From assembly GCA_019930625.1 (NCBI GenBank), contig CP082844.1, forward strand, positions 5,456,001-5,520,000: 64,000 nucleotides of DNA. Reading direction: 5' to 3'. The DNA is from Nocardia asteroides. GTDB lineage: Bacteria; Actinomycetota; Actinomycetes; Mycobacteriales; Mycobacteriaceae. The notes beneath the pieces were generated by a model, which was not told the origin of the DNA, did not search any database, and worked only from the letters and a program-made list of their open reading frames with translations. Positions 30,866-63,023 of the stretch are shown here, piece after piece. The position numbers and the translations under genes are program-made. Each line of letters begins with the position of its first letter. Position 1 is the stretch's first letter.

Positions 30866-31139
30866 GCGCGGAGTCGTGACGTCACCCTCCCGGTAAGGGA
30901 AGGCGCAGTTCTGTGACGGCGATGCGGGCGGATTCAGCGATGGCGGCGTCAACCACGGGCAGGTGCGGGTCCGCGCGGGCCGCCCGGGTGAATATCGCGA
31001 CCGCGACGGGGTGCTCGCCGGGAAATTCGACGACCGCTACCTCGTTGCGGATGACCCCGATTGTTCCGGTTTTACCTGCGACCGACACACTGCGGTAGGG
31101 GAATCCGGCGGTGACGCGGTGCGGCCAGACTTGGTGGCG
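30866..31139 (-). repeat. 274-bp inverted repeat, left copy (3' end of serine hydrolase gene)
   Basis: Read on the minus strand, this matches 42160-42433 on the plus strand over 274 bp without gaps and with six mismatches by eye. It covers the last 86 codons of the serine hydrolase plus 16 bp beyond its stop. All six mismatches fall at third codon positions and are synonymous. Confidence 0.93.
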
Positions 31140-31781
31140 CATGACGGTGCGGACGAATTCGGTCTGCTCGTCGGACAGCACCGCGCCGCTCCACAGTGCG
31201 CGCAGGAGACGGGTCATTTCCTCCGGTGTCGTCGCGCTCGTGTACGCCGGGTCGTACGCCGACACCGACCATGCATCGTCGTTCTCGGCGAGCACGGCGA
31301 ACGCCTCGGCGGTGGTGTGGGTGTCGGTGTCGCGGACGAGGCTGCGGTGCAGGTCGGCGGTGCCGCCCACGATCCGGGTGCGGGTGAGGCCGAGATCGTC
31401 CAGCAGGCCCTCCACCGCACCGAGGCCTGTCGCGCCGAGCAGGACATCGGCCGCGGCGTTGTCCGAGACGGTCATCATCGACGTCGCGAGGTCGCGCAGG
31501 CTCATGGTCACCGGATCGCGCATGACGGCGATCCCGGTGGGCCCCGGCGTGCAATCGGACGGTGCGACCGTCAGCCGGGTAGCAGGATCGATGCGCCCTG
31601 TGTCGACGAGGCGGCAGAACGCGACGAACAGCGGCAATTTGTACACCGACGCGAGCACCACCCGTTCGTCGCCGCCCACGGAGATCTCGGTCACGGAGCC
31701 GTCGCACCGGCGGGCGTGCAGCCAGCCGCTGCATCCCGCGTCCGCGAATACGGCGCGGATCCTGTCCTGGGCGGTGCTCAT
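30882..31781 (-). CDS. Beta-lactamase-fold serine hydrolase (class A-like)
   Basis: 299 residues with the penicillin-recognising motifs in order: Ser45-x-x-Lys48 (SVYK), SDN at 106-108 and KTG at 237-239. No signal peptide is visible, so the product looks cytoplasmic, and I find no ExxLN omega-loop motif carrying the deacylating Glu of true class A enzymes. It may therefore be a penicillin-binding or esterase-like relative rather than an efficient beta-lactamase. The ATG overlaps the LysR stop (ATGA), so the two are translationally coupled. Its last 86 codons are duplicated in inverted orientation at 42160-42417. Confidence 0.8.
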   Translation of the reverse strand: MSTAQDRIRAVFADAGCSGWLHARRCDGSVTEISVGGDERVVLASVYKLPLFVAFCRLVDTGRIDPATRLTVAPSDCTPGPTGIAVMRDPVTMSLRDLATSMMTVSDNAAADVLLGATGLGAVEGLLDDLGLTRTRIVGGTADLHRSLVRDTDTHTTAEAFAVLAENDDAWSVSAYDPAYTSATTPEEMTRLLRALWSGAVLSDEQTEFVRTVMRHQVWPHRVTAGFPYRSVSVAGKTGTIGVIRNEVAVVEFPGEHPVAVAIFTRAARADPHLPVVDAAIAESARIAVTELRLPLPGG

Positions 31782-32653
31782 CGCAGGCGCTCCCGATACA
31801 GCACCCGGTCGACGGCATCGGCATGGGCATCAGCGCCCGGACGGTAGACGACGCGGACTCGCAGGGCGACCGCCTGCGGCGCGATGCGCAGCCAGGTCAC
31901 GCCGGGCGTGGATGACGGAGGCATGGCGGTGAGCCCGAAGCTCGTTCCGGCGGCCACCGCCGCGAACACGGCCCGATCGTCGGGCGCGGGCACGGCCGGT
32001 GCGTCCAGGCCCCGCTCGCGCAACAGATCCACAATGGTGTCGAAGGCAGGAGGATTGGCGGCGCGCGGTGGGCAGGCGAAACTCAATCCGGCGAGCATGG
32101 GGAAGGTGGGGCGTTCGGCGCCGGCGCTGCGATGATCCGACGGCACCACGAGCCACCGCGGAATTCTGACGACCGGGCGGACCTCGACGCCGTCGACCAG
32201 CGCGGGATGCTCGACCACGGCGACGTCGCACAGTCCCGAGCGCACGTCGGCGACCAGGTCGACGCTGGCGCCCACCGTCGTGGACACCGCGGTATCCGGG
32301 ACGACCGCCGTGCGCAGCGCACCCACGCACGCCGTGACCACCCGGTCGGGCAACGCCGCGGTCGCGCCCCAGTGCACGGCGCCGTGGGCACTCGCGATGC
32401 GGTGTGACTCGGCGAGCAGGCGCTCGGCGTCGTCCACGAGCAGCCGAGCGCGCGGGAGCAGCTGTAGGCCTGCCGACGTGAGCACGGCCCCCTGCCGGGT
32501 GCGGTGGATGAGGTCGACGCCGAGATGCCGTTCGAGCCGACGGAGTCCCTGCGACAGCGGTGGCTGGGTCATGTCCAGCGCGGCCGCCGCCCTGCCGAAG
32601 TGTCCTTCCTCCGCGATGGAGACGAAGAACCGAAGGTGGCGGATCAGGTCCAT
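31778..32653 (-). CDS. LysR-family transcriptional regulator
   Basis: 291 residues starting at MDLIRHLRFFVSIAEEGHFG, the standard LysR N-terminal winged helix; a longer upstream reading is dismissed because its extra residues are arginine-rich and featureless. The helix-turn-helix is followed by LERHLGVDLIHRT and a periplasmic-binding-protein-like effector domain. The 3' end overlaps the serine hydrolase start by 4 bp. Divergently, 164 bp away, lies a true class A beta-lactamase gene, the classic AmpR/bla arrangement, so it probably controls that gene and its own operon (inference). A penicillin-responsive role is plausible but not shown. Confidence 0.9.
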   Translation of the reverse strand: MDLIRHLRFFVSIAEEGHFGRAAAALDMTQPPLSQGLRRLERHLGVDLIHRTRQGAVLTSAGLQLLPRARLLVDDAERLLAESHRIASAHGAVHWGATAALPDRVVTACVGALRTAVVPDTAVSTTVGASVDLVADVRSGLCDVAVVEHPALVDGVEVRPVVRIPRWLVVPSDHRSAGAERPTFPMLAGLSFACPPRAANPPAFDTIVDLLRERGLDAPAVPAPDDRAVFAAVAAGTSFGLTAMPPSSTPGVTWLRIAPQAVALRVRVVYRPGADAHADAVDRVLYRERLR

Positions 32654-32744
32654 GCGGTCATTGAACCAGCGGATTCGCGGAGATCGGTTCCGCTGTCCCA
32701 CCGGGCACGCCGACCGGCGCCGAACCGCAGGCGGGCCTGCGACG

Positions 32745-32781
32745 ATATCCAACTCGACTCGCCCATGCCTGGGCCGGATAT
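32745..32781. promoter_or_regulatory. Possible LysR operator between LysR and beta-lactamase genes
   Basis: The 164-bp divergent intergenic region holds an inverted pair atatcc (32745-32750) and ggatat (32776-32781) separated by 25 bp. LysR regulators bind AT-rich interrupted dyads in such intergenic regions. The arms are short and the call is tentative. Confidence 0.25.
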
Positions 32782-32817
32782 TGGCGTCGGCGGCGGTGTG
32801 GATGATGTGGTGCGGCA

Positions 32818-33747
32818 GTGACCCTTTCTGCTCTTGCTCACCGTGCCCCGCTCGGTCGTCGCCGGCTCCTCGCCGCTGTGACGGTGTCCGCGCTGTCTCT
32901 CGCCACCGCCGCGTGCGGGTCCGGCGCCGATACGCCAGCGGCCTCGAACACCACACCCGCGGCCACGATTCCGTCGTTCGCCGAGATGGAGACGACACAC
33001 TCCGCACGGCTGGGTGTGTATGCGATCGACACCGGCACCGGCCGCACCGTTGTCCATCGAGACGGGGAGAGGTTCCCGATCGCCTCCACGTTCAAAGGTC
33101 TCGCGTGCGGGGCCCTCCTGCGCGACCATCCTCTGGCAACGGGTTACTTCGATCAGGTGATCCACTATTCCCGGTCCGAACTCGTCCTCAACTCGCCGGT
33201 GACCGAGAAACATGTCGACACCGGCATGACCGTCGCCGAGCTGTGCGATGCCACGATCACCCTGTCCGACAACACCGCGGGCAACCTGCTGCTGAAGCTT
33301 CTCGGCGGCCCGGAAGGCTTCACCGCGTTCCTGCGGTCCATCGGCGACACCGTCTCCCGCCTGGACCGCTGGGAGCCCGAGTTGAACACCGCCATTCCCG
33401 GCGACGAGCGGGACACCACCACAGCCGCCGCCCTCGCCACCGATTACCGCAACCTCGTCCTCGGCGACATTCTCGCCGAACCCGAGCGAGCGCAATTGAA
33501 GTCGTGGCTGGTCGCCGCCAAGACGGGGGACGCACGCATTCGTGCCGCGCTGCCCGCCGACTGGACCGTCGGCGACAAGACCGGCAGCCCCGCTTACGGC
33601 GGCGCGCTCGACGTCGCGATCGCTTGGCCGCCCGGACGCGCTCCGCTCGTCATCGCCGTGCTTTCCACGAAATTCGAGCAGAACGCCGAAGCCGACAACC
33701 CTCTCGTCGCCGAGGCCGCCCGCGCCGCGGTTGGTGCGCTCGGGTAG
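32818..33747 (+). CDS. Class A beta-lactamase, lipoprotein
   Basis: 309 residues from a GTG; an in-frame TGA at 32803-32805 rules out a longer start. The N-terminus is a lipoprotein signal with lipobox TAAC (Cys33), so the enzyme should be anchored outside the membrane. All class A motifs are present: STFK with Ser90 and Lys93, SDN at 150-152, EPELN with the general-base Glu186, and DKTGS with Lys254. It should hydrolyse penicillins and perhaps cephalosporins. Chromosomal enzymes of this lipoprotein type are known in Nocardia, which agrees with the suggested host. It is divergent from the LysR gene that probably regulates it. Confidence 0.93.
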
Positions 33748-33931
33748 ACCGAGCGCCCTTGCCGCAGCGCGCCGTGATCGGCGACTGGACTCCCGATCGC
33801 GGCGCAGGCCAAGCCCCGCAAAAGACCCAGGCCGGTTCGCTCCAATGATCTGGAAAGCCAAGGCGCACAATGTCGCCCGGCCTTCGGTCCGCACTCGCCG
33901 GTTGCGTCACAGACGTGCAAGGATACCCGGC

Positions 33932-34936
33932 ATGCCCGAGCCCGAGAATGTATCGCTCGCCGCCCCACAGCGCCGCTGGAAGAAGAAGCGCTACTGGATG
34001 CCCGTCACAGTGATCGCGCTGCTGGCCGGGTTCCTGTTCGCCAACAACACAACGCTGCTCGCGGCCGAGCCCGAGGGCAGGCCGCTGGTGCTCGCACATC
34101 GCGGAATGGCGCAGACCTTCGCCATGGACGGCGTCGATGCCGACACCTGCACCGCCTCGCGTATCAATCCGCCGGTGCACGACTATCTGGAGAACACCAT
34201 CGCCGGGATTCAGGCCGCCTTCGACTCGGGCGCGGATCAGGTCGAGTTCGACGTCCACTGGACCGCCGACGGCGAGTTCGCGGTCTTCCACGACTGGACG
34301 CTCGACTGCCGCACCGACGGCACCGGCACCACCCGTGACCACACCATGGATGAGCTGCGAAAACTCGATATCGGGTACGGCTATACCGCCGACGGCGGCA
34401 AAACCTACCCGTTCCGTGGGAGGGGCGTCGGTCTCATGCCCACGCTCGACGAGGTGCTCGCCACCTTCCCCACCCAGTCGCTGCTGATCCACATCAAGAG
34501 CAACGACCCCGCCGAGGGTGCGGCCCTGGCGGATCGGCTCGCCGCTGAAAAACCGGACCGGCTCACCGTCTACGGCGGCGACGAACCGGTCGCGGCCGTC
34601 CATGAGCGCTTGCCGGACATGCGCGTCATGTCCAAACAGATCATGATCGACTGCCTGGGCCGGTACGAGGCCCTCGGATGGACCGGCGCGGCCCCCGGCG
34701 CCTGCCGCCACACCCAACTGCATATTCCCGAAGGCTACGCGCCCTGGCTGTGGGGCTGGCCGCACCGATTCGCCGAACGCATGGCCGACGCGGACGCCCG
34801 GATCGTGCTGGTCGCCGGATCCGGCGGGTTCTCCGAGGGCTTCGACACTCCCGAAGCCCTCGGCCGAATCCCCGCTGGTTTCACCGGTCTGGTCTGGACC
34901 AACCGAGTCGACACCATTGCGGCCGCACTTCGGTAA
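33932..34936 (+). CDS. Glycerophosphodiester phosphodiesterase family protein
   Basis: 334 residues from the ATG at 33932, preceded by AAGGA; the reading frame is open further upstream but without family similarity. Residues about 20-45 form one hydrophobic segment (uncleaved anchor or signal), so the catalytic domain should lie outside the membrane. The domain opens with LVLAHRG and carries EFDVHWTADGEFAVFHD, the metal-binding and acid-base residues of the GDPD TIM barrel. These enzymes release glycerol-3-phosphate from phospholipid head groups; some members act on other phosphodiesters. It lies 184 bp after the beta-lactamase gene and no operon partner is obvious. Confidence 0.88.
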   Translation: MPEPENVSLAAPQRRWKKKRYWMPVTVIALLAGFLFANNTTLLAAEPEGRPLVLAHRGMAQTFAMDGVDADTCTASRINPPVHDYLENTIAGIQAAFDSGADQVEFDVHWTADGEFAVFHDWTLDCRTDGTGTTRDHTMDELRKLDIGYGYTADGGKTYPFRGRGVGLMPTLDEVLATFPTQSLLIHIKSNDPAEGAALADRLAAEKPDRLTVYGGDEPVAAVHERLPDMRVMSKQIMIDCLGRYEALGWTGAAPGACRHTQLHIPEGYAPWLWGWPHRFAERMADADARIVLVAGSGGFSEGFDTPEALGRIPAGFTGLVWTNRVDTIAAALR

Positions 34937-35056
34937 GCACCGGCGCAGCGACCTCCCCGGAAAAATCAACGCAGAGGTCAGCGTGAGAAACGCGGATGAG
35001 GACGCTGAAGACAGGTCGCCTGAACCGAGCCGGGCGATCATGACAGGATCTCGATC

Positions 35057-35473
35057 ATGCCGATCGCCACCAGTTCGTTCGACCATGTCCGCTTGACAGT
35101 GACCGACATCGACAGATCCCGGGCCTTCTATGACGCCGTCTTCGGATGGCCGATCGCCTGGGAATGTCCCGTGGACGCGGACGAAGACACCCGTGCGCGC
35201 TTCGGGTTCCTCTTCGGCGGTGTGATCTACCAGATGGGTGATGCGCTGCTCGGACTTCGCCCCGTCGCCAGCGACGAGTTCGACGAAGATCGAGTGGGAC
35301 TCGACCACCTCGCCTTCACCCTCGCCACTCGGTCGGATCTCGATTCGGCGGCTGCCTTGCTCGACGAACTCGGCATCGCGCACGCGGGAGTGAAAGACCT
35401 CGGTCCCATGTACATTCTCGAATTCCGCGACCCGGACAACATCGCGCTGGAATTGGTCGTACGCAAGCAGTAA
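35057..35473 (+). CDS. VOC-superfamily (glyoxalase/bleomycin-resistance fold) protein
   Basis: 138 residues, a single chain with two beta-alpha-beta-beta-beta units: FDHVRLTVTDIDRSRAFYD at the start and LDHLAFTLATRSDL followed by FRDPDNIALELV at the end. The His of FDH and the Glu of ALELV sit where the fold usually binds a metal. Members range from glyoxalase I and ring-cleaving dioxygenases to antibiotic-binding proteins, so the substrate cannot be named. It is monocistronic, with an AGGA ribosome site about 10 bp before the ATG. Confidence 0.82.
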   Translation: MPIATSSFDHVRLTVTDIDRSRAFYDAVFGWPIAWECPVDADEDTRARFGFLFGGVIYQMGDALLGLRPVASDEFDEDRVGLDHLAFTLATRSDLDSAAALLDELGIAHAGVKDLGPMYILEFRDPDNIALELVVRKQ

Positions 35474-35689
35474 TCGCCACTTCCCGCGCGTGGGCGCGGC
35501 ACCGCGGCTGCCGCGTCACGCCGGTGAGTACCTGACTGCGCCGGCCGGGCCGCACCGACCTGCTCCCCGGCGTGATGAGCCGCCGACGCCGCAGGCCGAG
35601 TCAGGTCCGTACGGCGATAGCCGTCCGGCGTCAGCGATCGCACGACCCCAGCACACTCGGTACCGGCTCGTAGGGGCTAGATTCGGATT

Positions 35690-36436
35690 GTGGATGAAAT
35701 CGTCTATCCCTTCGCGGTTTTCATGGTGAAGGCCGCTCAGCGCGTATTGCGCCTGCGGACTCGGATAGTCGATGAATCACACCTGCCCCCTGTCGGGGGT
35801 GTGGTGGTGGCCAGCAATCACGTGTCGTATCTGGACCCTTTCGCTATCGCGCTTGCTGCGGACAAGGTGGGCCGGGTGGCGAGGTTCCTCTCGACGCGGG
35901 AGCATTTCGACCATCGGGTATATGGCGCTGCGATGCGCAGTATGCGGCACATCGCGGTGGGTTCCGGCGGTGATGGCGAGGCCTACCGCGCCGCGGCCGC
36001 CGCACTGGCCGCAGGGGAGCTCATCGGGGTGTTTCCGGAGGCGACGATCGCGCGATCGTTCACCGTCCAGCGGTTGCGGACGGGAGCAGCACGGTTGGCG
36101 GCAGGGTGCGGGGTGCCGCTGGTGCCGGTGGCGGTGTGGGGCACGCAGCGGCTGTGGACCACCCACCACCGTGAGCTCGGTCAGCGGGGTCTACCACTCA
36201 CGGTGATCGTGGGTGAGCCGATGTTCCCCGCGGCTGACGACAACCCTGACTACGTCACCATCCAGTTGCATGACCGTATGAAGGATCTTTTGGACCGGGC
36301 ACAGCGGGAGTATCCCGATTCCGGGACGGGACAGTGGTGGCAACCCCGTCATCTCGGCGGGTCCGCACTCACCCCGGCCGAGGCTGTGGCCCTGGATGCC
36401 GCGGAGAATCACGCACGGGATCGGCGCGAACCGTGA
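35690..36436 (+). CDS. PlsC-type 1-acyl-glycerol-phosphate acyltransferase family protein
   Basis: 248 residues from a GTG. The acyltransferase block NHVSYLD gives the catalytic HX4D (His44, Asp49), and FPEATIARSF matches the third block that binds the glycerol phosphate. Family members move an acyl chain from acyl-CoA or acyl-ACP to lysophosphatidate or to related glycolipid acceptors at the inner membrane face. It heads a run of three genes joined by short overlaps; the next gene starts inside its stop (GTGA). Partners with PIG-L and CocE domains suggest an acyl acceptor other than plain lysophosphatidate (inference). Confidence 0.88.
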   Translation: MDEIVYPFAVFMVKAAQRVLRLRTRIVDESHLPPVGGVVVASNHVSYLDPFAIALAADKVGRVARFLSTREHFDHRVYGAAMRSMRHIAVGSGGDGEAYRAAAAALAAGELIGVFPEATIARSFTVQRLRTGAARLAAGCGVPLVPVAVWGTQRLWTTHHRELGQRGLPLTVIVGEPMFPAADDNPDYVTIQLHDRMKDLLDRAQREYPDSGTGQWWQPRHLGGSALTPAEAVALDAAENHARDRREP

Positions 36437-37218
36437 CATCCCGAACCGCTGTCGAGTGCCTCGGCGCGCCGGATACGCCCTGGGTCTTCGTGCACGCCCA
36501 TCCCGACGACGAATCACTGTTGACGGCGGGAACGATGCGCAGGGTCAGCGAGGCCGGACGGCGCACCGTCGTCGTGTTCGCGACCGATGGCGCCGCGGGA
36601 CTCGCGGATTCGCCACCAGGTCCGCAGCTCGCAGCGCGTCGCGAGGCGGAGGCGTTGGCATCAGCCGCGGTCCTGGGATGCGACCGGGTGGAATTCCTCG
36701 GGTACGCGGATTCCGGACTCGACGGTCATGTGCCAGGCGGCTTCTGCGGCGTCCCTGTCGCCCAAGCGGCCGAGCGGCTTGCCGCCCTCTTGATCGAGGA
36801 GCGGGCGGGTGTGGTCACTTCCTATGACTCATCCGGAGGTTACGGGCATCCCGATCACGTGCAGGTTAATCGGGTGGTTGCGGCGGCGGCGCGGCAGGCC
36901 GCCACACCGTTGTTGCTGGAGGCGACAGTCGATCGCGATCAGCTACTGCGGGTATTGCGCTTGATACATGCTGTGGGATTGTTGCCCGCGGGGGTAGCGA
37001 TGGATCGGTTCAGCACGAGCTTTGTCCCCGGCGCGGACATCACCCACCGGGTCGACGTGCGACGCCATGCGAGCGTCAAGCGCGCCAGCATGATGGCCCA
37101 TGCCAGCCAGGCGGGTGGCGGTGACGGCTTGCGCACCCTGCGCTTGTTGGGGCGGCTACCGATGCCGCTGTTCCGACGAATCTGCGGCACGGAATGGTTT
37201 GTACAGCGGAATGTTTGA
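36433..37218 (+). CDS. PIG-L (LmbE-like) zinc deacetylase
   Basis: 261 residues from the GTG that overlaps the acyltransferase stop; a longer upstream reading adds only arginine-rich sequence. HAHPDDE at 21-27 is the metal-binding signature (His23, Asp25 as base, Asp26, Glu27), and GGYGHPDHVQVNR supplies the second metal His. Family members remove an N-acetyl group from amino sugars, for example GlcNAc-inositol in mycothiol synthesis and GlcNAc-phosphatidylinositol in GPI synthesis. The facing operon encodes two glycosyltransferases, so the substrate may be a lipid-linked amino sugar (inference). The stop overlaps the next start by 8 bp (ATGTTTGA). Confidence 0.9.
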   Translation: MTSRTAVECLGAPDTPWVFVHAHPDDESLLTAGTMRRVSEAGRRTVVVFATDGAAGLADSPPGPQLAARREAEALASAAVLGCDRVEFLGYADSGLDGHVPGGFCGVPVAQAAERLAALLIEERAGVVTSYDSSGGYGHPDHVQVNRVVAAAARQAATPLLLEATVDRDQLLRVLRLIHAVGLLPAGVAMDRFSTSFVPGADITHRVDVRRHASVKRASMMAHASQAGGGDGLRTLRLLGRLPMPLFRRICGTEWFVQRNV

Positions 37219-38740
37219 CCTGCGGATTGAGAGAGACCTGTCCGTCCCGATGCCGGATGGTGAACGCCTGCTCGCCGACCGGTACTACCGTGCGTCGGCT
37301 GCACCCGGACCGACCATCCTGGTGCGATCCCCTATGGGACGCCGACCGCTTGGCGTCATCTATGGGTTGTACTTCGCGCGCGCGGGATTTCAGGTGGTGG
37401 TGCAGGACGGCCGTTCGGGCGAGGATGTGCTGCCGCTGAGCACCGAGCGTGCCGACGGGTTGGCGACGATCGAGTGGCTTCGAGGTCAGGTGTGGTTCGA
37501 CGGCAGGTTGGCGTTGCATGGCATGAGCGCGATGGGGTTCGCGCACTGGGCTATCGCGGCGGACATCCCCGAATTGCTCGCTGTTTCAGTTCATGTCGCG
37601 GCCTCATCGGTTGCGGACACGATCTTCACCGGCGGTTCGACTGCGCTGGAGTCCGTGCTGATCTGGTGTTCGAATCACAGTTTCATCACCGCGCTGCGGG
37701 CGCCCCGTCGAGCGCGCCGGGCGATCGCGTCGGGGCGCCCGGCCGCGGAGTTGGATGTGCTGACCGGCGGTCGAACGGTCTCGTTCTATCAAGCCGTGAT
37801 CGCCGACATCGGCGCGGGCAGCCCGTTGCGGGAACTTCTCGACCACGCTCGCGCACCCGCGGAGTGCGCCGGAATACCGGTGCATCTCGTCGGCGGCTGG
37901 TACGACATCTTCCTGCCGGGCCTCGTCCGCGACTATGTCGCATTGAGTGCGGCCGGTGGTGCGCCGCGACTCACTATCGGACCATGGGGGCATTACAACC
38001 TCCGCCAATTCGTCGTCGCGAATCGTGAGGCCCGGCAGTGGTTCGACACCCACCTGCGTGGAAGCGAGGATCGCTCGTCTCGCGGGCCCGTTCGCCTGTT
38101 CGTCACCGGAGTCCGGCGCTGGCGCGAATACGTTTCGTGGCCTCCACCCGGAACCAGTCTCGTACGATGGCATTTGCGTGAGTCTGGGCGGCTGTCGCGT
38201 GTGTCTGCTGAGCAGGCGGGAAGCGATCATTTCCGATACGACCCTGCGGACCCCACGCCCGCTCCCCGTGGTCCCGTGATCGTCGGGTTCTCGCGGCCAC
38301 AGGACTGTCGGCAGATCGAAAGTCGGCCCGACCTGCTGACATACACCAGCGACCCGCTTGACGCACCGCTCGAGATCATCGGAACGGTGGTCGCCGAGCT
38401 TCGGTTGCGCATAGCCACCGCACATTCGCCGCGCGGGCATGGCGTCTGCGATGTCGTCGTGCGCGTGTGCGACGTTCATCCCGGTGGGCGATCTTTCAAC
38501 ATCTGCGAAGGCGTACAGCGGGGCGAGCCACCAACCGACGAGGACGATATCCGGGTCGAATTGTGGCCGATCGCGCACCGGTTCGCCGCCGGACATCGGC
38601 TGCGCGTGCAGGTATGCGGCGCGGCGGTTCCGCGCTACTTACGGCAGCCGGACCCGGCCGCATACGAGCTCATTCGTGACCCGAACGGTACCTCGTCCGT
38701 GATTCTGCCGACGGTCCCCACTGGTCTCGGAATGTGCTGA
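37211..38740 (+). CDS. CocE/NonD-family alpha/beta hydrolase (peptidase S15 type)
   Basis: 509 residues from the ATG at 37211, inside the end of the PIG-L gene. The catalytic triad is visible: Ser106 in GMSAMG, Asp232 in GWYDIF and His261 in GPWGHYN. The C-terminal jelly-roll domain of the family follows, with SGRLS, PRGPVIVG and the late VQVCGAAVPRYLR strand. Characterised relatives are acyl esterases, amidases and X-Pro dipeptidyl peptidases. No signal peptide is seen. The 3' end overlaps the convergent glycosyltransferase gene by 71 bp, so coding sequence is shared on both strands. Confidence 0.88.
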   Translation: MFDLRIERDLSVPMPDGERLLADRYYRASAAPGPTILVRSPMGRRPLGVIYGLYFARAGFQVVVQDGRSGEDVLPLSTERADGLATIEWLRGQVWFDGRLALHGMSAMGFAHWAIAADIPELLAVSVHVAASSVADTIFTGGSTALESVLIWCSNHSFITALRAPRRARRAIASGRPAAELDVLTGGRTVSFYQAVIADIGAGSPLRELLDHARAPAECAGIPVHLVGGWYDIFLPGLVRDYVALSAAGGAPRLTIGPWGHYNLRQFVVANREARQWFDTHLRGSEDRSSRGPVRLFVTGVRRWREYVSWPPPGTSLVRWHLRESGRLSRVSAEQAGSDHFRYDPADPTPAPRGPVIVGFSRPQDCRQIESRPDLLTYTSDPLDAPLEIIGTVVAELRLRIATAHSPRGHGVCDVVVRVCDVHPGGRSFNICEGVQRGEPPTDEDDIRVELWPIAHRFAAGHRLRVQVCGAAVPRYLRQPDPAAYELIRDPNGTSSVILPTVPTGLGMC

Positions 38741-39584
38741 GGGCGACGGCCTCGTTACGGCCGGACCTGTTCACTGTGTGGTGCAGCGCGCCTACGAACG
38801 CGCCCGCCGCCTCGATCGGCACCCCGCGTATCGGTATCACCAACCGCGGCACACCCCGGCGCGCCAGGTGCCCGGATATCCAAACGTCGTCCTGCCAGCG
38901 CATTTCCGGCGGCCAGCCCTCGAAATCGTGGACATCGTCGTCCAGCGCTCCGGGCGGGATCAGATATCCCCACATACCCATCAGCACATCGACTGGGGTG
39001 GCCTCGGACACCGCGGTTCCGCATACATGTCCGGAATAGCGTGGATCGCGGTCGAACCACGCGCTCGATCCACGCACTCCCACAGCGGCTTTCGGCTCCG
39101 CGCGATGCCCCGCGAGCAGATCCGCGACGAACGTATCCGGATAGATCGCGTCATCGTCGACCACCACGATGACGGCGTCCGGCTCGGCGAGCAGCGTGGG
39201 CAGCAGTTTTGTCGCTGGGCCCAGATCCGTACACCGCAGCACCTTCACACCCGACGGCAGTGCCGGCGGTTGCGGGTAAGGGTCACCCGTGCGTAGCGAG
39301 TGCCGCGGCCAGGTAAGTACCAACCGATCAGCGGGTTCGGTCTGGTCGAGCAGGCTGCGCAGCACCGGACCCAGGTACTGCACACGGTGCGGCACAGTCG
39401 ACAAGGTGATGACCACGCGCTCGGCGCGGGCAGGCACCGTACGCGTCGGCGGATCCCGGTGCAACAGCCGGACGGCCCGCGAGAGGTCATGAGCAAGACC
39501 GCTGATCGTCGTATTGACGAACCGTTTTCGGAAATGTTCGACGTTGCTCCACCCGATGCGGGCGACATGGGTCGGCGAGATCAT
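38670..39584 (-). CDS. Putative glycosyltransferase, GT2-like
   Basis: 304 residues from the ATG that overlaps the preceding GT4 stop (ATGA). A central VVDDDAIYPDTF supplies the nucleotide-sugar and metal-binding Asp cluster of GT-A enzymes, preceded by VVITLSTVPHRVQYLGPVLRSLLDQ, the usual opening strand and helix. Later WQDDVWISGHLARRGV fits an acceptor-site motif. No membrane segment is visible, so it should act in the cytoplasm on a lipid- or protein-linked acceptor. It forms a two-gene unit with the GT4 gene, facing the PlsC/PIG-L/CocE operon. Donor and acceptor are unknown. Confidence 0.75.
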   Translation of the reverse strand: MISPTHVARIGWSNVEHFRKRFVNTTISGLAHDLSRAVRLLHRDPPTRTVPARAERVVITLSTVPHRVQYLGPVLRSLLDQTEPADRLVLTWPRHSLRTGDPYPQPPALPSGVKVLRCTDLGPATKLLPTLLAEPDAVIVVVDDDAIYPDTFVADLLAGHRAEPKAAVGVRGSSAWFDRDPRYSGHVCGTAVSEATPVDVLMGMWGYLIPPGALDDDVHDFEGWPPEMRWQDDVWISGHLARRGVPRLVIPIRGVPIEAAGAFVGALHHTVNRSGRNEAVALSTFRDQWGPSAESRTRYRSGHE

Positions 39585-40687
39585 CCGAGCGCGTCCTTCC
39601 CGTTGGCCGCGGCGGTGACGTGCCGTGCGGCATCGTCGTAGCAGGTACGCAGCCGATCCAATACGACAGGCCAACTGAATTCGGCAGGGGGTACGGCTCG
39701 ATTATGGGCGCTGATGCGATCGCGCAGCGTCCGTCGCCGGCCCAGCGATACCAGTGCGGTGACGAGGTCCTCGGTGGAGCGGCCCAGCAGGCCCTCGCGG
39801 CCGTCCTCGACGAAATCCGCGACGCCGGTGCCGGATCGAGCGATCACTGGAACACCGGCCGTTCGAGCCTCCAAAGTCGCCAATCCGAAGGCCTCGCGGC
39901 GGGTGACATTCAGGTACACATCCGCCGACGCCAAGATCTCGCGCACCGCCCGATGATCCTGCGAACCCACCAATCGCACCCACTCGGCCATGCCATGCCT
40001 GCGCAGATAACGGAGCATCGCACCGCGGCGCGGGCCCGAGCCGACGATCGTGGCGCGCACCCGCACCTCACCGGCCAGCCGGTCCTGCGCCAGCCGAAGG
40101 ACCTCGAGCAGCTTCAACGGTTGCCTGCGCGTGACCAGCCTGCCCACCGAAACGACATGCAGACCAGTGCCACTCGTGGACGGCACCTCCCACAGGTCAG
40201 TTGCCACCGCGTTGGGCACTACGACGGGAGTACTGGACAACGCACGCCCGACCTGATCGGCGACGACTGTACTCACCGCCGTGAACACCATGCCGTCGTG
40301 CCAGCCCGCCAGCCGCCCGAGCAGGCTGTAGCAGGCCCGGACCGGAGGATCCCACATGCTGTGCACCGTGACCACGAGCGGGATACACAACCGAAGCGCG
40401 TGGTGCGCGGAGTAGACCGCCAGCGGTGACGCCACACTCACATGAATGTGCACGACACTGGGCCGCAGTCGCCGAAGTATGCCGCGCACGTCGGTCATTC
40501 GGCGTGCCCGGTGGACCTGAAAGGGCAGTTCCGAGTCGCTGCCGCCGACGGTCCCGGTGATCACGTGAACTTCCTCGCCGACAGCGGTCTGTGCGCGAGC
40601 CAGGGACTCGACCAGCACCTCGATGCCCCCGACGCGGGGCGCGAAAACATCGGTCAGATGCACTATCAACGCCGACCCCTGCGCCAC
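39581..40687 (-). CDS. Glycosyltransferase, GT4 family (GT-B fold)
   Basis: 368 residues from a GTG with GGGGG just upstream. The N-terminal half has HLTDVFAPRVGGIEVLVESLA, the glycine-rich acceptor-domain loop; the C-terminal half has VVSVGRLVTRR and the nucleotide-sugar EX7E motif in REAFGLATLE. Relatives transfer mannose, glucose or GlcNAc from activated donors, including the GlcNAc transferase MshA of mycothiol synthesis. Together with the PIG-L deacetylase of the facing operon this suggests a step order of sugar transfer then deacetylation, but mycothiol itself is not implied because its other enzymes are absent here. Confidence 0.88.
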   Translation of the reverse strand: MAQGSALIVHLTDVFAPRVGGIEVLVESLARAQTAVGEEVHVITGTVGGSDSELPFQVHRARRMTDVRGILRRLRPSVVHIHVSVASPLAVYSAHHALRLCIPLVVTVHSMWDPPVRACYSLLGRLAGWHDGMVFTAVSTVVADQVGRALSSTPVVVPNAVATDLWEVPSTSGTGLHVVSVGRLVTRRQPLKLLEVLRLAQDRLAGEVRVRATIVGSGPRRGAMLRYLRRHGMAEWVRLVGSQDHRAVREILASADVYLNVTRREAFGLATLEARTAGVPVIARSGTGVADFVEDGREGLLGRSTEDLVTALVSLGRRRTLRDRISAHNRAVPPAEFSWPVVLDRLRTCYDDAARHVTAAANGKDALG

Positions 40688-40771
40688 AGTAAGTCCCCCT
40701 GTATGTCAACAACCTTCGGACGAATAACGCTGGCGTACAAGCAATCCGAAACTTGACGCATAATCCTCGGC

Positions 40772-41902
40772 ATGGATGAGATGCGGATCATCACCGAGGA
40801 CGGCGTCGGACTGCATGTCGAACTCGACGGAGACCCGGCCGGTCCGCACACCCTCCTCTTCGTCAACGGTATCAATACCGGCTTGATCTATTGGGGCCAT
40901 CAGCGCGCGACTCTCGCCGACCTGGGCCGCATCGTGCTGTTCGACCACCGTGGGCACGGCCGCTCCGACGAACCGGTGACCGGCCGTGCGACGGTCGCGC
41001 AGCTAGGGCGTGATATCGGAACGGTCATCGACACTATCGCATCCGAGCGTCCGGTAGTGATCGTCGCGCACTCACTGGGAGGGATGGCGGTGTCCGCCTT
41101 GGCCGAACAGCGTCCAGAGCTGTTCGGACGCCAGGTGGCCGGAGTAGCACTCCTGGACTGTGTTGCGCGAGGATGGGGTGGAATCGCCTTGCGCCTACCT
41201 GATTTCGTTGTCGGTCCGGTGGTGCGGATGCTCTGGTGGGGGATACCCCCGCTGCGTCGCCTGCTCACCGACACCAGCGAACGCCGACACCCCGAACTCG
41301 CCGGAGGCCGGACTGCGCCGAGCAGGCGCACGCCATTCGTCTCGCTACGCCGGGCCCGCAGGCTGATTGCTTCCCTGCGAACGATGACGTTGCTGTCATT
41401 GCTGGCCGATGTGTCGACCTGTGACCACAGCGCCGGCCTCTCGGCTCTCGGGCGCGCACAGGTCCTGGTCATCGCGGGCGCCGAAGACCGTATGATTCCT
41501 CTGCGACACAAGGTGCGCGCCGCCGCCCGGATACCCGGTGCCGAGCTGGTGATCGTGGCCGATGCCGGTCACCTCAGCTCGATCGTCAAACCAGACTGCG
41601 TCGATGGGCACCTGCGCGCCTTCATCAGCGCACTACCAGCCCCGCACGTACAGGTGAATAGATCCGCCGCCGCGCCGCCCACATCACGATCGTCCTCGTC
41701 GGCTACCCCGCGGCCATCTGCCTCGACAGTGGCCGCAGCACCCATCCGCTCTGGGCGGCCGACGCCAGCTATCTGCGGGCCGAAACCGGCCAACTCAACA
41801 CCGTCATGGCCGCCGAAGCCGCCGAACACACCACATTCGTCAGCCTGGACGCCTCGACGCGAGGGCACGACGCCTGCGCCACGCCCGGCGAACGATGGGT
41901 GA
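40772..41902 (+). CDS. Alpha/beta hydrolase with an abnormal C-terminal extension
   Basis: 376 residues as read. Residues 1-290 are a normal alpha/beta hydrolase: AHSLGG holds the nucleophile, GAEDRMIP the Asp and DAGHLS the His, and such proteins normally end about there. From about residue 291 the reading becomes low-complexity (Ala/Pro/Ser/Arg) because it runs out of frame through the remnant of another gene, a GDSL/SGNH lipase read in frame 1 from 41662. The native stop seems to have been lost at a recombination junction near 41640-41660. The enzyme domain may still fold; the substrate is unknown. Confidence 0.8.
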   Translation: MDEMRIITEDGVGLHVELDGDPAGPHTLLFVNGINTGLIYWGHQRATLADLGRIVLFDHRGHGRSDEPVTGRATVAQLGRDIGTVIDTIASERPVVIVAHSLGGMAVSALAEQRPELFGRQVAGVALLDCVARGWGGIALRLPDFVVGPVVRMLWWGIPPLRRLLTDTSERRHPELAGGRTAPSRRTPFVSLRRARRLIASLRTMTLLSLLADVSTCDHSAGLSALGRAQVLVIAGAEDRMIPLRHKVRAAARIPGAELVIVADAGHLSSIVKPDCVDGHLRAFISALPAPHVQVNRSAAAPPTSRSSSSATPRPSASTVAAAPIRSGRPTPAICGPKPANSTPSWPPKPPNTPHSSAWTPRREGTTPAPRPANDG

Positions 41903-42027
41903 CCGGCCTGATTGCCATGATCATCGACGCACCGACGCCTTCGCATCCCAACGCAGCCAACCACGTTCGATCCGGCACTCGCGCTGGGCGAAGACCGTCG
42001 CCGCGATGTCGCCCGCAAGACCCGTGA
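41662..42027 (+). pseudogene. SGNH/GDSL lipase, 3' remnant
   Basis: In frame 1, directly after a TAG at 41659-41661, the DNA encodes the C-terminal half of an SGNH hydrolase: IRRRAAHITIVLVGYPAA, then ADASYLRAETGQLN, and the catalytic-block sequences STRGHDAC and PTPSHPNAANH. The N-terminal half with the GDSL serine is missing, so the fragment cannot be active. It overlaps the out-of-frame tail of the alpha/beta hydrolase gene and ends just before a strong hairpin. Confidence 0.8.
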
Positions 42028-42043
42028 CGGGTTGGAAGCCGCG

Positions 42044-42083
42044 GCCCACCCGCGGCCGCGAGGGCAGGCGGCCGCGGGTGGGC
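42044..42083. terminator. 16-bp GC hairpin after lipase remnant
   Basis: A perfect 16-bp stem (42044-42059 with 42068-42083) and an 8-nt loop sit 17 bp after the stop of the lipase remnant. It is probably the original terminator of that gene, kept after the gene decayed. Confidence 0.8.
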
Positions 42084-42159
42084 GCCGCGCGATTCCGGCT
42101 CGTCACGCTGAGGGACAGTCGCGGCGCTAGATCGCCCGCGGGGTCGGGGGGCTGGCTGT

Positions 42160-42417
42160 CGCCACCAAGTCTGGCCGCACCGCGTCACTGCCGGATTCCC
42201 CTACCGCAGTGTGTCGGTCGCAGGTAAAACCGGAACAATCGGGGTCATCCGCAACGAGGTAGCGGTCGTCGAATTTCCCGGCGAGCACCCCGTCGCGGTC
42301 GCGATATTCACCCGGGCCGCCCGCGCGGACCCGCACCTGCCTGTTGTCGACGCCGCCATCGCCGAATCCGCCCGCATCGCCGTCACAGAACTGCGCCTTC
42401 CCTTACCGGGAGGGTGA
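42160..42417 (+). pseudogene. Serine hydrolase (beta-lactamase-like), 3' remnant
   Basis: The last 86 codons and the stop of a gene matching the intact serine hydrolase at 30882-31781, here on the opposite strand. It includes the KTG motif (GKTGTIG) but lacks the active-site Ser and the SDN. Similarity begins abruptly at 42160 and runs past the stop to 42433. All six differences from the intact copy are synonymous. No promoter or start is needed: it is the tail of a gene split by recombination. Confidence 0.93.
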
Positions 42418-42433
42418 CGTCACGACTCCGCGC
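42160..42433 (+). repeat. 274-bp inverted repeat, right copy
   Basis: Inverted partner of 30866-31139, gap-free, with six mismatches (about 98% identity by eye count). The two copies bound 11.0 kb. Inversion between them would rebuild a full serine hydrolase gene at this end. Confidence 0.93.
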
Positions 42434-42525
42434 TCGCGACCTGGGGCACTGGCCGCCGCCGTGCTGAACGTGCTGCCGCCCGCCCGGGCAGCTCCCACAC
42501 CACCGACCTGCGTGAGTTCAACGAG

Positions 42526-49745: not shown

Positions 49746-49760
49746 ACACTGCTTGGCGGA

Positions 49761-50867
49761 TCAGAGCTCGGCGACCAAGTCCGCCGCGGCTTCGATCGCC
49801 GTGGCCTCGTGCTCGAGGAGGACGTCGCCACCCTGCGTCGAGACGATCGGCGTGTACGGATCGTCCACGAATTCTTCACCGAGCAGCTCGCGCACCACCG
49901 CGAGCCCGCAGAACGGAACATAGTGCGGGCTGTAGCCACCTTCTTGCACGAAGGCGATGCGGCCCGCGCAGGTTCCGTCCGCGATCTCCAGCATCCGGCG
50001 GGTCAGGTGCTGGAAGCCGCCGCTGGTGACCATCTGCCGAGCCAGCGGATCGAGGATGCTCGCGTCGAAGCCCGACGCCACGAGGATCAGTTCGGGCGCG
50101 AAGGCGCGCAGCGCCGGCTCCACCACTCGGTCGATCGCGTGCGAATACGCGGCGTCGCCGCTGCCCGGCGGAAGCGGCACATTGATCGCGTAACCGTATC
50201 CGTCGCCCGCGCCACGCTCCTCCCGGTAACCGGACTCCGGCGGGAAGCAGAGGTGCTGGTGGATCGAGATGGTCAGCACCGAGGGATCCTCATACCAGAT
50301 GTCCTGGGTGCCGTTGCCGTGGTGGACGTCCCAGTCCACCACGGCGATGCGCCGCACACCGAGAACATCTTTCGCGTAGGCGGCGGCGACGGAAACGTTG
50401 TTGAAGATGCAGAAGCCCATGCCGGTAGCACGGGTCGCGTGGTGACCCGGCGGATTGACCAGCGCATAACCATTGTCGACCGTCCCGTCGAGCACTTGCT
50501 GGACGAGCGCGATCGCGCCGCCCGCCGAAAGCGCGGCGATCTCGTACCCGCCCCTGCCGAAGGACGAGACCCCGTCGCCGGCGTCTCCGCCCTTCGGTTG
50601 CAAGCTCTCGGCCTTGATCCGCTCCAGATGTTGCACCGTGTGCACGCGCAGTATGTCGGCCTCGGTAGCGGGCACCGCCTCGATCGGATGCAACTTCTCC
50701 AACAGGCCGGACACCGCGACCAATTCATGGAATCGTCGCTTGGTATCGGGGTGCGCGAGGTGGTGGCCGATCGGCTGGAGACCGACCGTGACGTCGGACG
50801 GGAACAGGCTTCCGCTACCCGTGTCGGCCCACCCGTAGAGGGTGTTCCACACGTATCCAGTTGTCAT
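49761..50867 (-). CDS. HDAC-like deacetylase (acetylpolyamine amidohydrolase / class II HDAC group)
   Basis: 368 residues with the zinc-deacetylase signatures: NPPGHHATR (charge-relay His pair), DWDVHHGNGTQDI (zinc Asp and His) and SGFDASILDPLA (second zinc Asp). Bacterial members remove acetyl groups from polyamines, acetylated lysines or similar amides in the cytoplasm. The neighbour on the other strand, 262 bp away, encodes an amino-acid-binding lipoprotein, so uptake and deacetylation of an acetylated amine could be linked (inference). The gene is complete and uses an ATG. Confidence 0.9.
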   Translation of the reverse strand: MTTGYVWNTLYGWADTGSGSLFPSDVTVGLQPIGHHLAHPDTKRRFHELVAVSGLLEKLHPIEAVPATEADILRVHTVQHLERIKAESLQPKGGDAGDGVSSFGRGGYEIAALSAGGAIALVQQVLDGTVDNGYALVNPPGHHATRATGMGFCIFNNVSVAAAYAKDVLGVRRIAVVDWDVHHGNGTQDIWYEDPSVLTISIHQHLCFPPESGYREERGAGDGYGYAINVPLPPGSGDAAYSHAIDRVVEPALRAFAPELILVASGFDASILDPLARQMVTSGGFQHLTRRMLEIADGTCAGRIAFVQEGGYSPHYVPFCGLAVVRELLGEEFVDDPYTPIVSTQGGDVLLEHEATAIEAAADLVAEL

Positions 50868-51129
50868 GGTGACTCCCAGCAGTCAGCGGACCACCACACC
50901 GTCCGCTCGTTCCGAACTTGGTCTCGAGGGTGACCGGCCCCATTAGAAGCACAGCAGCGACCACTCCGCAACCGAGAAGATCGCCAGCAGTGGCGGCGTC
51001 GGCAAGCTTTCCACTGGCGGGGAGGCCATCGATAGGGGGCACCGGGAGTTTCCGGGAAACATGACGTGTCGTCAGCACCCGGCGGCCGGGCCCGGCCTGG
51101 CAGCTCAGCCTGAGAGGGAACCGAATTCG

Positions 51130-51966
51130 ATGAGGACGCACCGAACATTTTGCCTCGCCATCGGGGCGATCGCCGTCGCCCTCGTCGCCACCGCCTGCGG
51201 TGGCGGCAGCGACACCACGACCACCGAAGACCACGTGCGCGAGGGCAAGCTGACTATCGGCATCAAGTTCGACCAGCCCGGCCTGGGCTTTCGCGAGGCG
51301 GACGGCTCGTACCAAGGCTACGACGTGGAGATCGCCAAGTATGTGGCAGGCAAGCTCGGCGTACCGCCCGGCGGCATCACCTTCAAGGAGACGCCGACGG
51401 CGCAACGCGAGGCCATGATCATGAATGGCGAGGTGGACTTCATCGTGGCCACCTACTCGATCACCGACGAACGCAAGCAGAAGGTCGACTTCGCCGGACC
51501 GTACTTCGTTGCCGGGCAGGCCCTGCTGGCGAGGAACGAGACCACCGATATCACCGGCGTCGAGTCGCTGGCCGGAAACAAGAAACTGTGCTCGGTCAAA
51601 GGCTCCACTCCCGCGCAGTATGTCAAGGACCACTACGCCAGAGACGTTCAGCTGGTCGAACTGGACAACTATTCGCAGTGCGTCCAAGCGCTACGCAGCG
51701 GTGCGGTCGACGTGGTGACCGCCGACGACATCATCCTCGCAGGGTTCGCCGGACAGGTGTCGGGCGAACTGAAGCTGGTCGGCGACGCGTTCACCACCGA
51801 GAAATACGGCATCGGCCTGAAGAAGGGCGACCAGCAGACCCGCGCCAAGATCAATGACGCGATCGAGCAGATGATCGCCGACGGCTCGTGGCACAAGGCC
51901 TTCGAGAACACGATCGGTCCGCTCCGCGACTCGACGCTGACGCCACCCGCCATCGATCGTTACTGA
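51130..51966 (+). CDS. Amino-acid (glutamate-type) ABC transporter substrate-binding lipoprotein
   Basis: 278 residues from the ATG at 51130, preceded by GAGAGGGAA. The signal ends in the lipobox VATAC, so it is a membrane-anchored binding protein outside the cell. KLTIGIKFDQPGLGFREADG, EIAKYVAGKLGV and VDFIVATYSITDERK are the family-3 solute-binding hallmarks, nearest in style to actinobacterial glutamate-binding GluB. No permease or ATPase gene follows; a hairpin terminates it at once. It must either share a transporter encoded elsewhere or act as a sensor. Confidence 0.9.
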   Translation: MRTHRTFCLAIGAIAVALVATACGGGSDTTTTEDHVREGKLTIGIKFDQPGLGFREADGSYQGYDVEIAKYVAGKLGVPPGGITFKETPTAQREAMIMNGEVDFIVATYSITDERKQKVDFAGPYFVAGQALLARNETTDITGVESLAGNKKLCSVKGSTPAQYVKDHYARDVQLVELDNYSQCVQALRSGAVDVVTADDIILAGFAGQVSGELKLVGDAFTTEKYGIGLKKGDQQTRAKINDAIEQMIADGSWHKAFENTIGPLRDSTLTPPAIDRY

Positions 51967-51975
51967 CAGGCCCGC

Positions 51976-52015
51976 ACGCGCGGGTGGCTCGGCGAGCCAC
52001 CGAGTCCCCGCGCGG
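51976..52015. terminator. Hairpin after binding-protein gene
   Basis: An inner 8- to 9-bp stem (ggtggctcg with cgagccacc) is extended by an outer gcgcggg/cccgcgc pair, 10 bp after the stop. The rest of the gap to 52279 shows no gene. Confidence 0.65.
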
Positions 52016-52279
52016 CGCAACGCCATAGACGACGCATGCACAAACGCCTAACTTCTTCGCGTAGAGACACGCCAGGAAGTCGCCTGCCAGGGGGGTATCG
52101 CTGGTCCGCTGTCGCCTGTCGCCCGCCGTCGATCCGCCCGGATCGGCGGCAAGGTGCTCCGCCCGCGCGGCTTGCCAACGCCCGATCCGGGTCAGCAGCC
52201 GGAAATCTCGGAGACTTCAGCGCCGTGAGCAGCGGCATCAACGATCACGAAGTCCGGCCGGAGTAATTAGAATGACGAT

Positions 52280-53512
52280 GTGCAGCGCGCTGCGGTGACC
52301 GATCCTTCGCGTGTCGTGGTTCTCGGGTCCGGGTTTGCGGGTCTGTGGGCGGCGCTCGCGGCGGCGCGGCGGCTCGACGAGCTCGGTGTGGCGGTCGGAA
52401 CCGTCGATGTCACGATGATCAGTTCCACTCCGTACCACGACATACGCGTGCGTGACTACGAGAGCGATCTGAGCACGGCCCGCATCCCATTGAGCGCTCT
52501 TCTGGATCCGGTCGGAATCGAGCACATCATCGGCGAAGTGACGGCGATCGATGCCGTGGCGCGGGTCGTGGAATCCACCGCGGGCGCTCACGGCTACGAC
52601 CGGCTGGTGCTCGCGGTGGGCAGCCGGGTGGTCAAGCCCGATATCCCCGGCCTGCGGGAGTTCGGCTTCGACATCGACACCCATGACGCAGCGACCGGAC
52701 TGCAAGCCCACCTGCGCAGGCTTGCCCAGGGCCCCGCTGACCCGGCGGCCGCGACAGTAGTCGTCGTCGGGGCAGGTTTGACGGGCATCGAAGAAGCGAC
52801 TGAGCTGCCCGCGATGCTCGCCGACGCCTTCGCCCCGCGTGCCGTCGCACCGCGGGTCATCCTGGTCGACCGCAATCCGTTCGTCGGCTCGGACATGGGC
52901 GCCTCGGCGCGACCGGTCATCGAGGCGGCGCTGGCCTACACCGGGATCGAGACCAGGTTGGGCGTCGGGGTCGTCGCCATCGGTGAGCGCGGCGTGACGC
53001 TCTCCTCGGGTGAAGTGGTGACCGCTGCCACCGTCGTCTGGTGCGCCGGCATGCGGGCCAACCCGCTGACCGCGGACTTCGGCGTCGACCTTGACCGGCT
53101 GGGTCGACTCCCCGTCGACGATTATCTGCGGGTCTGCGGTGTGCCCGGGGTATTCGCCGCCGGTGACGTCGCCGCCGCACAAATGGACGACGAGCATATG
53201 TCGGTGATGTCCTGCCAGCACAGCCGCCCGATGGGCCGATGGGCCGGATACAACGTCATCGGCGATCTTCTCGGCGAGCCCATGAAGCCGTTGCGGATCT
53301 CCTGGTATGTCACGGTTCTCGATCTGGGACCGGCAGGAGCGGTGTATACCGAGGGCTGGGACCGCCACGTGGTCGCGTGCGGCAAGGCGGCTAAAGACAC
53401 CAAGCGCGCCATCAACACCCGGCGTATCTATCCTCCGTTGAACCGTGACCGCGATGCATTGCTGGCCGCCGCCGCGCCCGAACTGCAGACCGCACCCGAG
53501 CACGGACACTAG
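52280..53512 (+). CDS. NDH-2-like FAD-dependent pyridine nucleotide oxidoreductase
   Basis: 410 residues from a GTG; a second GTG six codons later is equally possible. The FAD-binding Rossmann motif is VVVLGSGFAGLWAALAAA, the NAD(P)H motif VVVVGAGLTGIEEATEL and the second FAD contact VFAAGDVAAA. The order and spacing fit type II NADH:quinone dehydrogenases and related flavoproteins, but the C-terminal amphipathic membrane helix of NDH-2 is not obvious, so a soluble oxidoreductase is possible. It is followed by a hairpin and stands alone. Confidence 0.82.
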   Translation: MQRAAVTDPSRVVVLGSGFAGLWAALAAARRLDELGVAVGTVDVTMISSTPYHDIRVRDYESDLSTARIPLSALLDPVGIEHIIGEVTAIDAVARVVESTAGAHGYDRLVLAVGSRVVKPDIPGLREFGFDIDTHDAATGLQAHLRRLAQGPADPAAATVVVVGAGLTGIEEATELPAMLADAFAPRAVAPRVILVDRNPFVGSDMGASARPVIEAALAYTGIETRLGVGVVAIGERGVTLSSGEVVTAATVVWCAGMRANPLTADFGVDLDRLGRLPVDDYLRVCGVPGVFAAGDVAAAQMDDEHMSVMSCQHSRPMGRWAGYNVIGDLLGEPMKPLRISWYVTVLDLGPAGAVYTEGWDRHVVACGKAAKDTKRAINTRRIYPPLNRDRDALLAAAAPELQTAPEHGH

Positions 53513-53541
53513 TCTGCCAGGCGCTCCGCGCAGCAGGTTCC

Positions 53542-54769: not shown

Positions 54770-55026
54770 TCGGGCCGGTGATCAGCCGCTCGCTCCGCCC
54801 GGGTCCGCAGGATTCGGCCTGGCGCCGAGAGCGCCATCGCGCCCGGCTCGGCGAACGAGCCCGAGATGCGCAGTGCTTCCAGTCGTTCGACCAGCGCCAC
54901 CTCGACAGCCCCGCGCGTTCCTGCAACTCGAGGCGCGTCAGCGGGCCTGCCGTACACAGCAGGCCGGGCACATGGCCGGGCGAGGTGCGGCTCGACGGCG
55001 GCGAAGTTACGCAGGCACATTGACAA
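54770..55026 (-). pseudogene. ROK-type repressor, N-terminal winged-helix remnant with frameshift
   Basis: One frame reads LLCTAGPLTRLELQERAGLS, the start of a ROK-type winged helix; the next piece, VALVERLEALRISGSFAEPG, continues in another frame. One missing G near 54910 (aggtggcg for agggtggcg) would join them. The kinase-like sugar domain is absent. ROK repressors usually lie beside sugar ABC transporter genes, and this fragment is divergent from one, so the transporter may have lost its local repressor. Confidence 0.6.
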
Positions 55027-55099
55027 TATCCCTCAGCGCACTTACGTTGACCAACCTGACATTTGCCTGAAACAGGTTGTGCGCGAAGAGGAGCCATGC

Positions 55100-56410: not shown

Positions 56411-56412
56411 CC

Positions 56413-57258: not shown

Positions 57259-57325
57259 GACACCTTCGCCGGCCGTTGATCGAGGCGACGGGGTGCGGGT
57301 ACGCCCGCGGAAGCCGAGGAACGCG

Positions 57326-58195: not shown

Positions 58196-58208
58196 CAGGG
58201 GTTCGCTG

Positions 58209-59297: not shown

Positions 59298-59448
59298 TTA
59301 CCATCGCGGGTGACGCGATATGTTCATCTCGATCGAGCTGCCCTACCTCAACGTGAACCGTGCCGTCACGGAACCAGGCACACTGCCGGCCGCGCGATGA
59401 AGTGACGGGATGCGCCGGGCTCGCCGCACCGGTTAGGATTCACATGTC

Positions 59449-62700: not shown

Positions 62701-63023
62701 ATCCGCGACCACACCGAGAAGCGGCCCAGCACCGGCCCCGCCTGCCTCACCACGCTAGAGCCCACTCCCATCGCTACCTTTCGCAGCTTGCCGCTACACC
62801 CGAACACCACGCTGATGGGATTGCTACCGACTGGCCGATCGACCCCCGCCTGAGCGTAGATGCCCAGCGCCCTGTTCGAAACGGCCCACACCGAAAATTA
62901 ACTTTTCTGACAAAAACAAACTCGGGATAGCGAGAACCGCTCTCTTCGCCCGGCACCTCGGCCTGGACGGCTGGCAGCACTGTCCGGCCGATCATTCCAG
63001 CCGGTCCTCCCGGGCAAGCCGGA
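62701..63023. other. Stretch without a recognisable gene
   Basis: No protein motif, repeat or hairpin of note was found between the AraC remnant and the CGNR gene end. Confidence 0.4.

Follow-up and report, generated by a model that had tools for sequence, protein, structure and literature searches.

The locus described here lies within a 64,000-nucleotide (nt) stretch of the Nocardia asteroides chromosome (contig CP082844.1, positions 5,456,001 to 5,520,000), hereafter called the window, in whose coordinates positions are given unless stated otherwise. It contains an inverted repeat, the arms of which enclose, among others, a class A beta-lactamase gene. The left arm (30866-31139, minus strand) is formed by the 3' end of a native BlaB-like gene together with 16 nt past its stop codon, and the right arm (42160-42433, plus strand) is a scrap of 274 base pairs (bp) from the same gene, comprising codons 215-299, the stop codon and likewise 16 nt beyond it, whereby the start codon and the 5' part are lacking. 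Repeat search and alignment document that both arms are 274 nt long and gap-free, exactly as a first-pass annotation of this DNA had stated, that 268 of the 274 positions are identical (98% complementary) and that 11020 nt separate one arm from the other. The longest identical run between two differences measures 128 nt. Across the BlaB-like stop codon a 10-bp palindrome, GTGACGTCAC, is found in both arms (30876-30885 and 42414-42423).

The BlaB-like gene (30882-31781, minus strand) is open from start to stop and encodes a protein of 299 amino acids (aa) with a beta-lactamase fold, which matches PF13354 and scores 115 bits against the NCBIfam class A beta-lactamase model, i.e., below the cut-off of 200. 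The closest solved structure is that of the regulatory protein BlaB (2wuq, E 1.3e-18). The gene had earlier been called a serine hydrolase gene; its intactness holds, while its description is refined to that of a gene for a BlaB-like protein, belonging to a conserved trio together with a LysR-family regulator and a class A beta-lactamase. The LysR open reading frame (ORF; 31778-33007, minus strand), recognized by domain match, overlaps with its 3' end the start of the BlaB-like gene, and as its helix-turn-helix match begins only at residue 122, the true start probably lies further inside the ORF. The class A beta-lactamase gene (32818-33747, plus strand) is oriented opposite to the LysR gene and forms the end of the trio conserved in relatives; its product reaches 331 bits against the same cut-off of 200. 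A GDPD-family ORF (33542-34936, plus strand) with a domain match at residues 194-323 follows. A comparable regulatory locus is blaL-blaA-blaB of Streptomyces cacaoi, and both similarity and position suggest a like arrangement here, with the class A beta-lactamase gene opposing the LysR gene and the BlaB-like gene following next. In contrast to the S. cacaoi locus, the present one belongs to another genus and its blaB-like gene possesses a 3' scrap 11 kilobases (kb) off. The BlaB1 described in PMC9146315 is a different protein, namely a class B enzyme, and the available part of PMC13140225 mentions neither LysR nor a regulator; neither report is part of the argument.

Within the window the two arms represent the sole inverted pair of at least 60 nt (repeat search, seed 16), and a genome-wide search with the arm returned two places only, i.e., both arms, with no third copy among the 40 of 86 candidates that were scored. 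A BLAST comparison of a contiguous 584-kb stretch of the chromosome with itself gave seven self-repeats with a length of 150 bp or more and an identity of 88% or more. Repeats within longer alignments of lower identity, such as those of the gene modules repeated at 1-28 kb, do not enter this count. Three of the seven are inverted, and the arm pair is the only inverted one with less than 100 kb in between. Since the genome-wide search gave no third copy and few inverted repeats were reported in the 584 kb, the repeat is taken to be real and locally unusual. A chance origin of the arm similarity is excluded. That the right copy is an artefact of duplicate assembly is disfavoured by the six differences between the copies and by the chromosome being a single 7.36-megabase contig.

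Towards the right arm, the enclosed segment terminates in a string of broken genes. The first is an alpha/beta hydrolase gene (40772-41661, plus strand), whose 3' end is kept in N. exalbida and in genome G017 and is lost here at 41661, which marks a breakpoint relative to both. It is followed by the C-terminal part of an SGNH/GDSL hydrolase (scrap A; 41660-41965, plus strand), traced to 41958 by BLAST and to 41965 by local alignment, with a single weak GDSL match in Pfam (E 0.01) and no match in NCBIfam. Next comes scrap B (41947-42161, plus strand), which stems from the C-terminal part of a small serine recombinase and is decayed. It is 63% identical to a 192-aa recombinase from another Nocardia over residues 106-179 of the latter (E 4.8e-16) and contains one internal stop; as the piece before this stop has no match in Pfam or NCBIfam, its identity derives from this sequence similarity. 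Scrap B and the BlaB-like scrap overlap by about 2 nt. Thus, alpha/beta hydrolase, SGNH hydrolase, serine recombinase and BlaB-like gene line up as four broken pieces of the same direction, with the right arm, truncated at either side, coming after three incomplete coding pieces. Besides position 41661, the joint of scraps A and B and that of scrap B and the BlaB-like scrap are breakpoints. No close copies of scraps A and B were found elsewhere in the same genome, the other resolvases of which are at most 39% identical. Consisting of codons 215-299 only, the right arm cannot encode a whole protein alone, and the class A motifs SxxK and SDN fall within the gene part that it lacks.

For comparison, six relatives were mapped, namely N. 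exalbida (G052), N. asiatica (G019), N. xishanensis (G147), N. beijingensis (G026), N. niwae (G082) and G122; the comparison set holds one genome per species and the relatives used are mostly drafts. In N. exalbida, similarity begins at 33748, covers the BlaB-like gene with the left arm and reaches down to 30242, and in N. asiatica it extends down to 30819, i.e., 47 nt beyond the left arm. As the flank past the arm is common to N. exalbida and, over these 47 nt, to N. asiatica, the left arm together with its flank is, judged by sequence comparison, the older arrangement. The arm was further searched across 148 Nocardia genomes, including the one under study, with five candidates scored per genome. 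Long matches were obtained twice in the own genome and once (193-275 nt) in 73 of the 147 others, none of which yielded a second long copy; the other arm matches listed are at most 152 nt long, and 50 of the 148 genomes are without a match. Within this set, the right copy is hence private to the own genome. Beyond the right arm, a spacer (42434-42525) is matched in none of the compared loci of other genomes, and it is followed by a cytochrome P450 gene (42526-43830, minus strand), for which the match in G017, G059 and N. exalbida starts at 42525, in other surroundings. In N. exalbida this P450 match lies on the same contig as the BlaB-like gene, 37 kb away from it. A BlaB-like gene beside the P450 gene, as expected for the flipped form, is absent from all six mapped relatives (P450 matches of at least 80% identity), so that the opposite arrangement, for which the first-pass annotation had proposed to look in related genomes, was not found in this set.

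The part of the segment preceding the scar occurs elsewhere in relatives. A block encoding an acyltransferase, a CocE/NonD hydrolase, a group 1/4 glycosyltransferase and the alpha/beta hydrolase (35656-41661) is present in one piece, at 92%, both in N. exalbida and in G017, where it corresponds to window 35583-41658. The N. exalbida copy resides on a contig other than that of the BlaB-like gene and comes after sequence which matches window position ~137.6 kb. At the corresponding place of the chromosome under study, a 359-bp inverted relic of the block (G000:C1:5593605-5593963, i.e., window ~137605-137963; 95% to window 36412-36770) stands where N. exalbida has the whole acyltransferase block, here found at 35.6-41.7 kb. 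Right-end scar and 359-bp relic taken together, short scraps were left behind at two places in the region.

Similarity of the trio ends at 33748-33756 in six of six relatives mapped, and as the sequence beside it (window 33750) differs by species, the region was reshuffled between species. In N. asiatica the piece found here at 49756-53522 adjoins the trio in inverted orientation at the 33750 edge, in N. niwae the piece found here at 55019-59298 does so, likewise inverted, and in N. exalbida it is the piece found here at 63006-63324. On the other side of the trio, window positions 1-28011 carry repeated stretches every ~5.3-6.6 kb and an ORF of 3657 aa, resembling a large modular synthase, of polyketide type by its look, and G090 retains the stretch of 16.3-30.7 kb at 93%. 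N. exalbida seems to have lost the repetitive cluster to the left of the trio (G052:C46:12413-12418 versus window 30242 and -12449); its joint keeps a 5' piece of an old yellow enzyme (OYE)-type oxidoreductase gene, and the two matches overlap by 6 nt. Further off, a 978-bp direct repeat (99.8%) with copies ~103 kb apart (window coordinates -163818 to -162842 and -59905 to -58928, on G000:C1) may be a mobile element.

The selection argument is based on one short alignment covering 255 coding nt of the arm, in which the left and right copies differ by six synonymous and no amino-acid changes, all six being third-position differences. Within the same stretch, the N. exalbida sequence shows eight synonymous and one non-synonymous change against the left arm and seven and one against the right arm, and the rest of its BlaB-like gene differs from the N. 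asteroides gene by 12 synonymous and nine non-synonymous changes. As the scrap carries no amino-acid change, it is suggested to have diverged while being part of a working gene, perhaps that of a sister strain; most simply, its truncation would then be a recent event.

Considering these findings, the inverted repeat is most likely a by-product, i.e., a relic scrap from illegitimate rejoining whose orientation is accidental, and not a genetic switch. Here, the block at ~35.6-41.66 kb, located elsewhere in relatives, would have been joined to the P450 region by illegitimate recombination (end-joining or microhomology), a process which would have left the dead 274-bp BlaB-like scrap, the scraps of two other genes and the cut alpha/beta hydrolase gene. 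The source of the right arm would most simply be a slightly diverged allele of a sister strain, and any RecA flip between the arms is expected to be rare and close to silent. A rare RecA-type inversion within the species may occur; none was observed. Gene remnants and partial gene duplicates are known to occur at rearrangement junctions, and the right arm resembles these in being truncated at both ends, in lacking the 5' part and start codon and in residing where a relocated block ends, amid further truncated genes. It differs from them in that it faces its intact parent 11 kb off, with the frame preserved and without amino-acid change.

Several observations weigh against this by-product explanation. 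No intermediate stage of the scar is present in the genomes compared. Despite its six differences, the right scrap shows no frameshift, stop or amino-acid change. Of random changes in this stretch, 27-30% are synonymous, so that an all-synonymous outcome has a chance of 4e-4 to 7e-4 if all six changes fell in an unconstrained copy. If only the two to four changes assignable to the right copy fell there, the chance is ~0.09 to 0.006, and the pattern is weak evidence. The allele combination of the right arm occurs in none of 106 aligned homologous loci (of 109 given, several being the same genome twice), and no second arm match is found in the DNA of these 106 loci. Lastly, a gene kept in use by flipping would show the same synonymous-only pattern, which is the main reservation about the relic explanation.

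Still within the relic explanation, and overlapping with it, a variant was considered which assumes that the right copy arose by local duplication of the left gene and was incorporated as filler DNA upon break repair, with both copies having diverged since. This variant appears possible but rather doubtful: the arms cluster together with a support of 96/96 in a short alignment and have four changes in common that set them apart from N. exalbida and N. asiatica, yet six arm differences, as compared to nine and eight towards N. exalbida over the same 255 nt, without an amino-acid change are unexpected for a dead copy of such age. Relative to these two species, the right arm has two private changes and the left arm one, and each of the remaining three sites shows an agreement between a single arm and a single species.

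Far less weight is given to the idea that the segment inverts reversibly by homologous recombination, whereby each arm in turn would serve as the gene's 3' end and both would be kept without amino-acid changes, which we regard as unlikely. Its geometry, as put forward in the first-pass annotation, is right: the left copy is the 3' end of an intact gene with its 5' part within the segment (the arm being codons 215-299 of 30882-31781), the frame would be carried over to the right copy owing to the equal length of the arms and the absence of gaps, and all genes in between would turn around together. Gap-free arms of matching frame, 128 identical nt in a row and six of six differences being synonymous speak in its favour. 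The annotation's further claim that both orientations would be functional with the other 3' end stands insofar as one full gene results either way, but both ends encode the same amino acids; as all six differences are synonymous, the flip rebuilds the same protein and switches nothing, and no obvious benefit arises. Neither the flipped arrangement in the six mapped relatives nor a second long copy in the 147 other genomes, 73 of which have one, was found, and frequent exchange should homogenise the arms, yet six differences persist. Thus, an alternating or regulated inversion is unsupported. Regarding enzymes, 17 PF00589 (Phage_integrase) and 11 PF00239 (Resolvase) matches are present genome-wide, and none of these two recombinase families, which were those searched, has a match within the window; site-specific inversion by a nearby enzyme was rejected on this ground, the recombinase piece beside the right arm being a decayed fragment. 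This point also counts against reversible inversion, though a RecA-type flip would need no such recombinase. Resolvase genes with identical scores on the chromosome (G000:C1:5230242-5230838) and on a small contig (G000:C2:52085-52681) are probably the same gene.

Slightly less credible still is a protein-silent invertible segment, in which occasional recombination between two interchangeable blaB-like 3' ends would flip the trio and selection would act on both ends in turn, so that only the context, i.e., strand and neighbours, differs. The least likely explanation, that the arms are the product of one past staggered-break inversion and not its substrate, draws on inverted duplicates at both segment ends being the mark of this mechanism in Drosophila, but was rejected because the ancestral intact gene would need its 3' end to face the P450 side whereas N. 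exalbida shares the present left junction, and it leaves the other right-end scraps unexplained.

Gene-end switching by inversion is well known from shufflons, and the repeats of hsdS loci lie within coding sequence. The present arms are like these switches in being inverted repeats in a coding frame which is preserved on inversion, and unlike them in that both 3' ends encode the same residues, that no intact recombinase of the two families searched resides in the window and that the other orientation is unseen in relatives. At the hsdS loci of Streptococcus pneumoniae, inversion is reported to connect a gene's 5' part with a different 3' end (PMC4948785, PMC6620402), a swap which changes the allele (PMC4948785), and recombination at the pneumococcal spnIII locus reportedly proceeds even when every known recombinase of the pneumococcus is missing (PMC6620402), so that the recombinase criterion is not absolute. 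A narrow, open-access literature search turned up no publication dealing with this repeat, nor any describing inversion at a bla locus of Nocardia.

Should a silent flip be found after all, the locus would document that homologous inversion can persist without protein change. The case mainly calls for caution, in that what looks like a clean, frame-preserving inverted repeat can be the relic of a rearrangement, and junction-by-junction comparison with relatives answers most of the question. For Nocardia, the locus shows that gene blocks around the beta-lactamase trio were reshuffled between species, with short gene scraps left behind.

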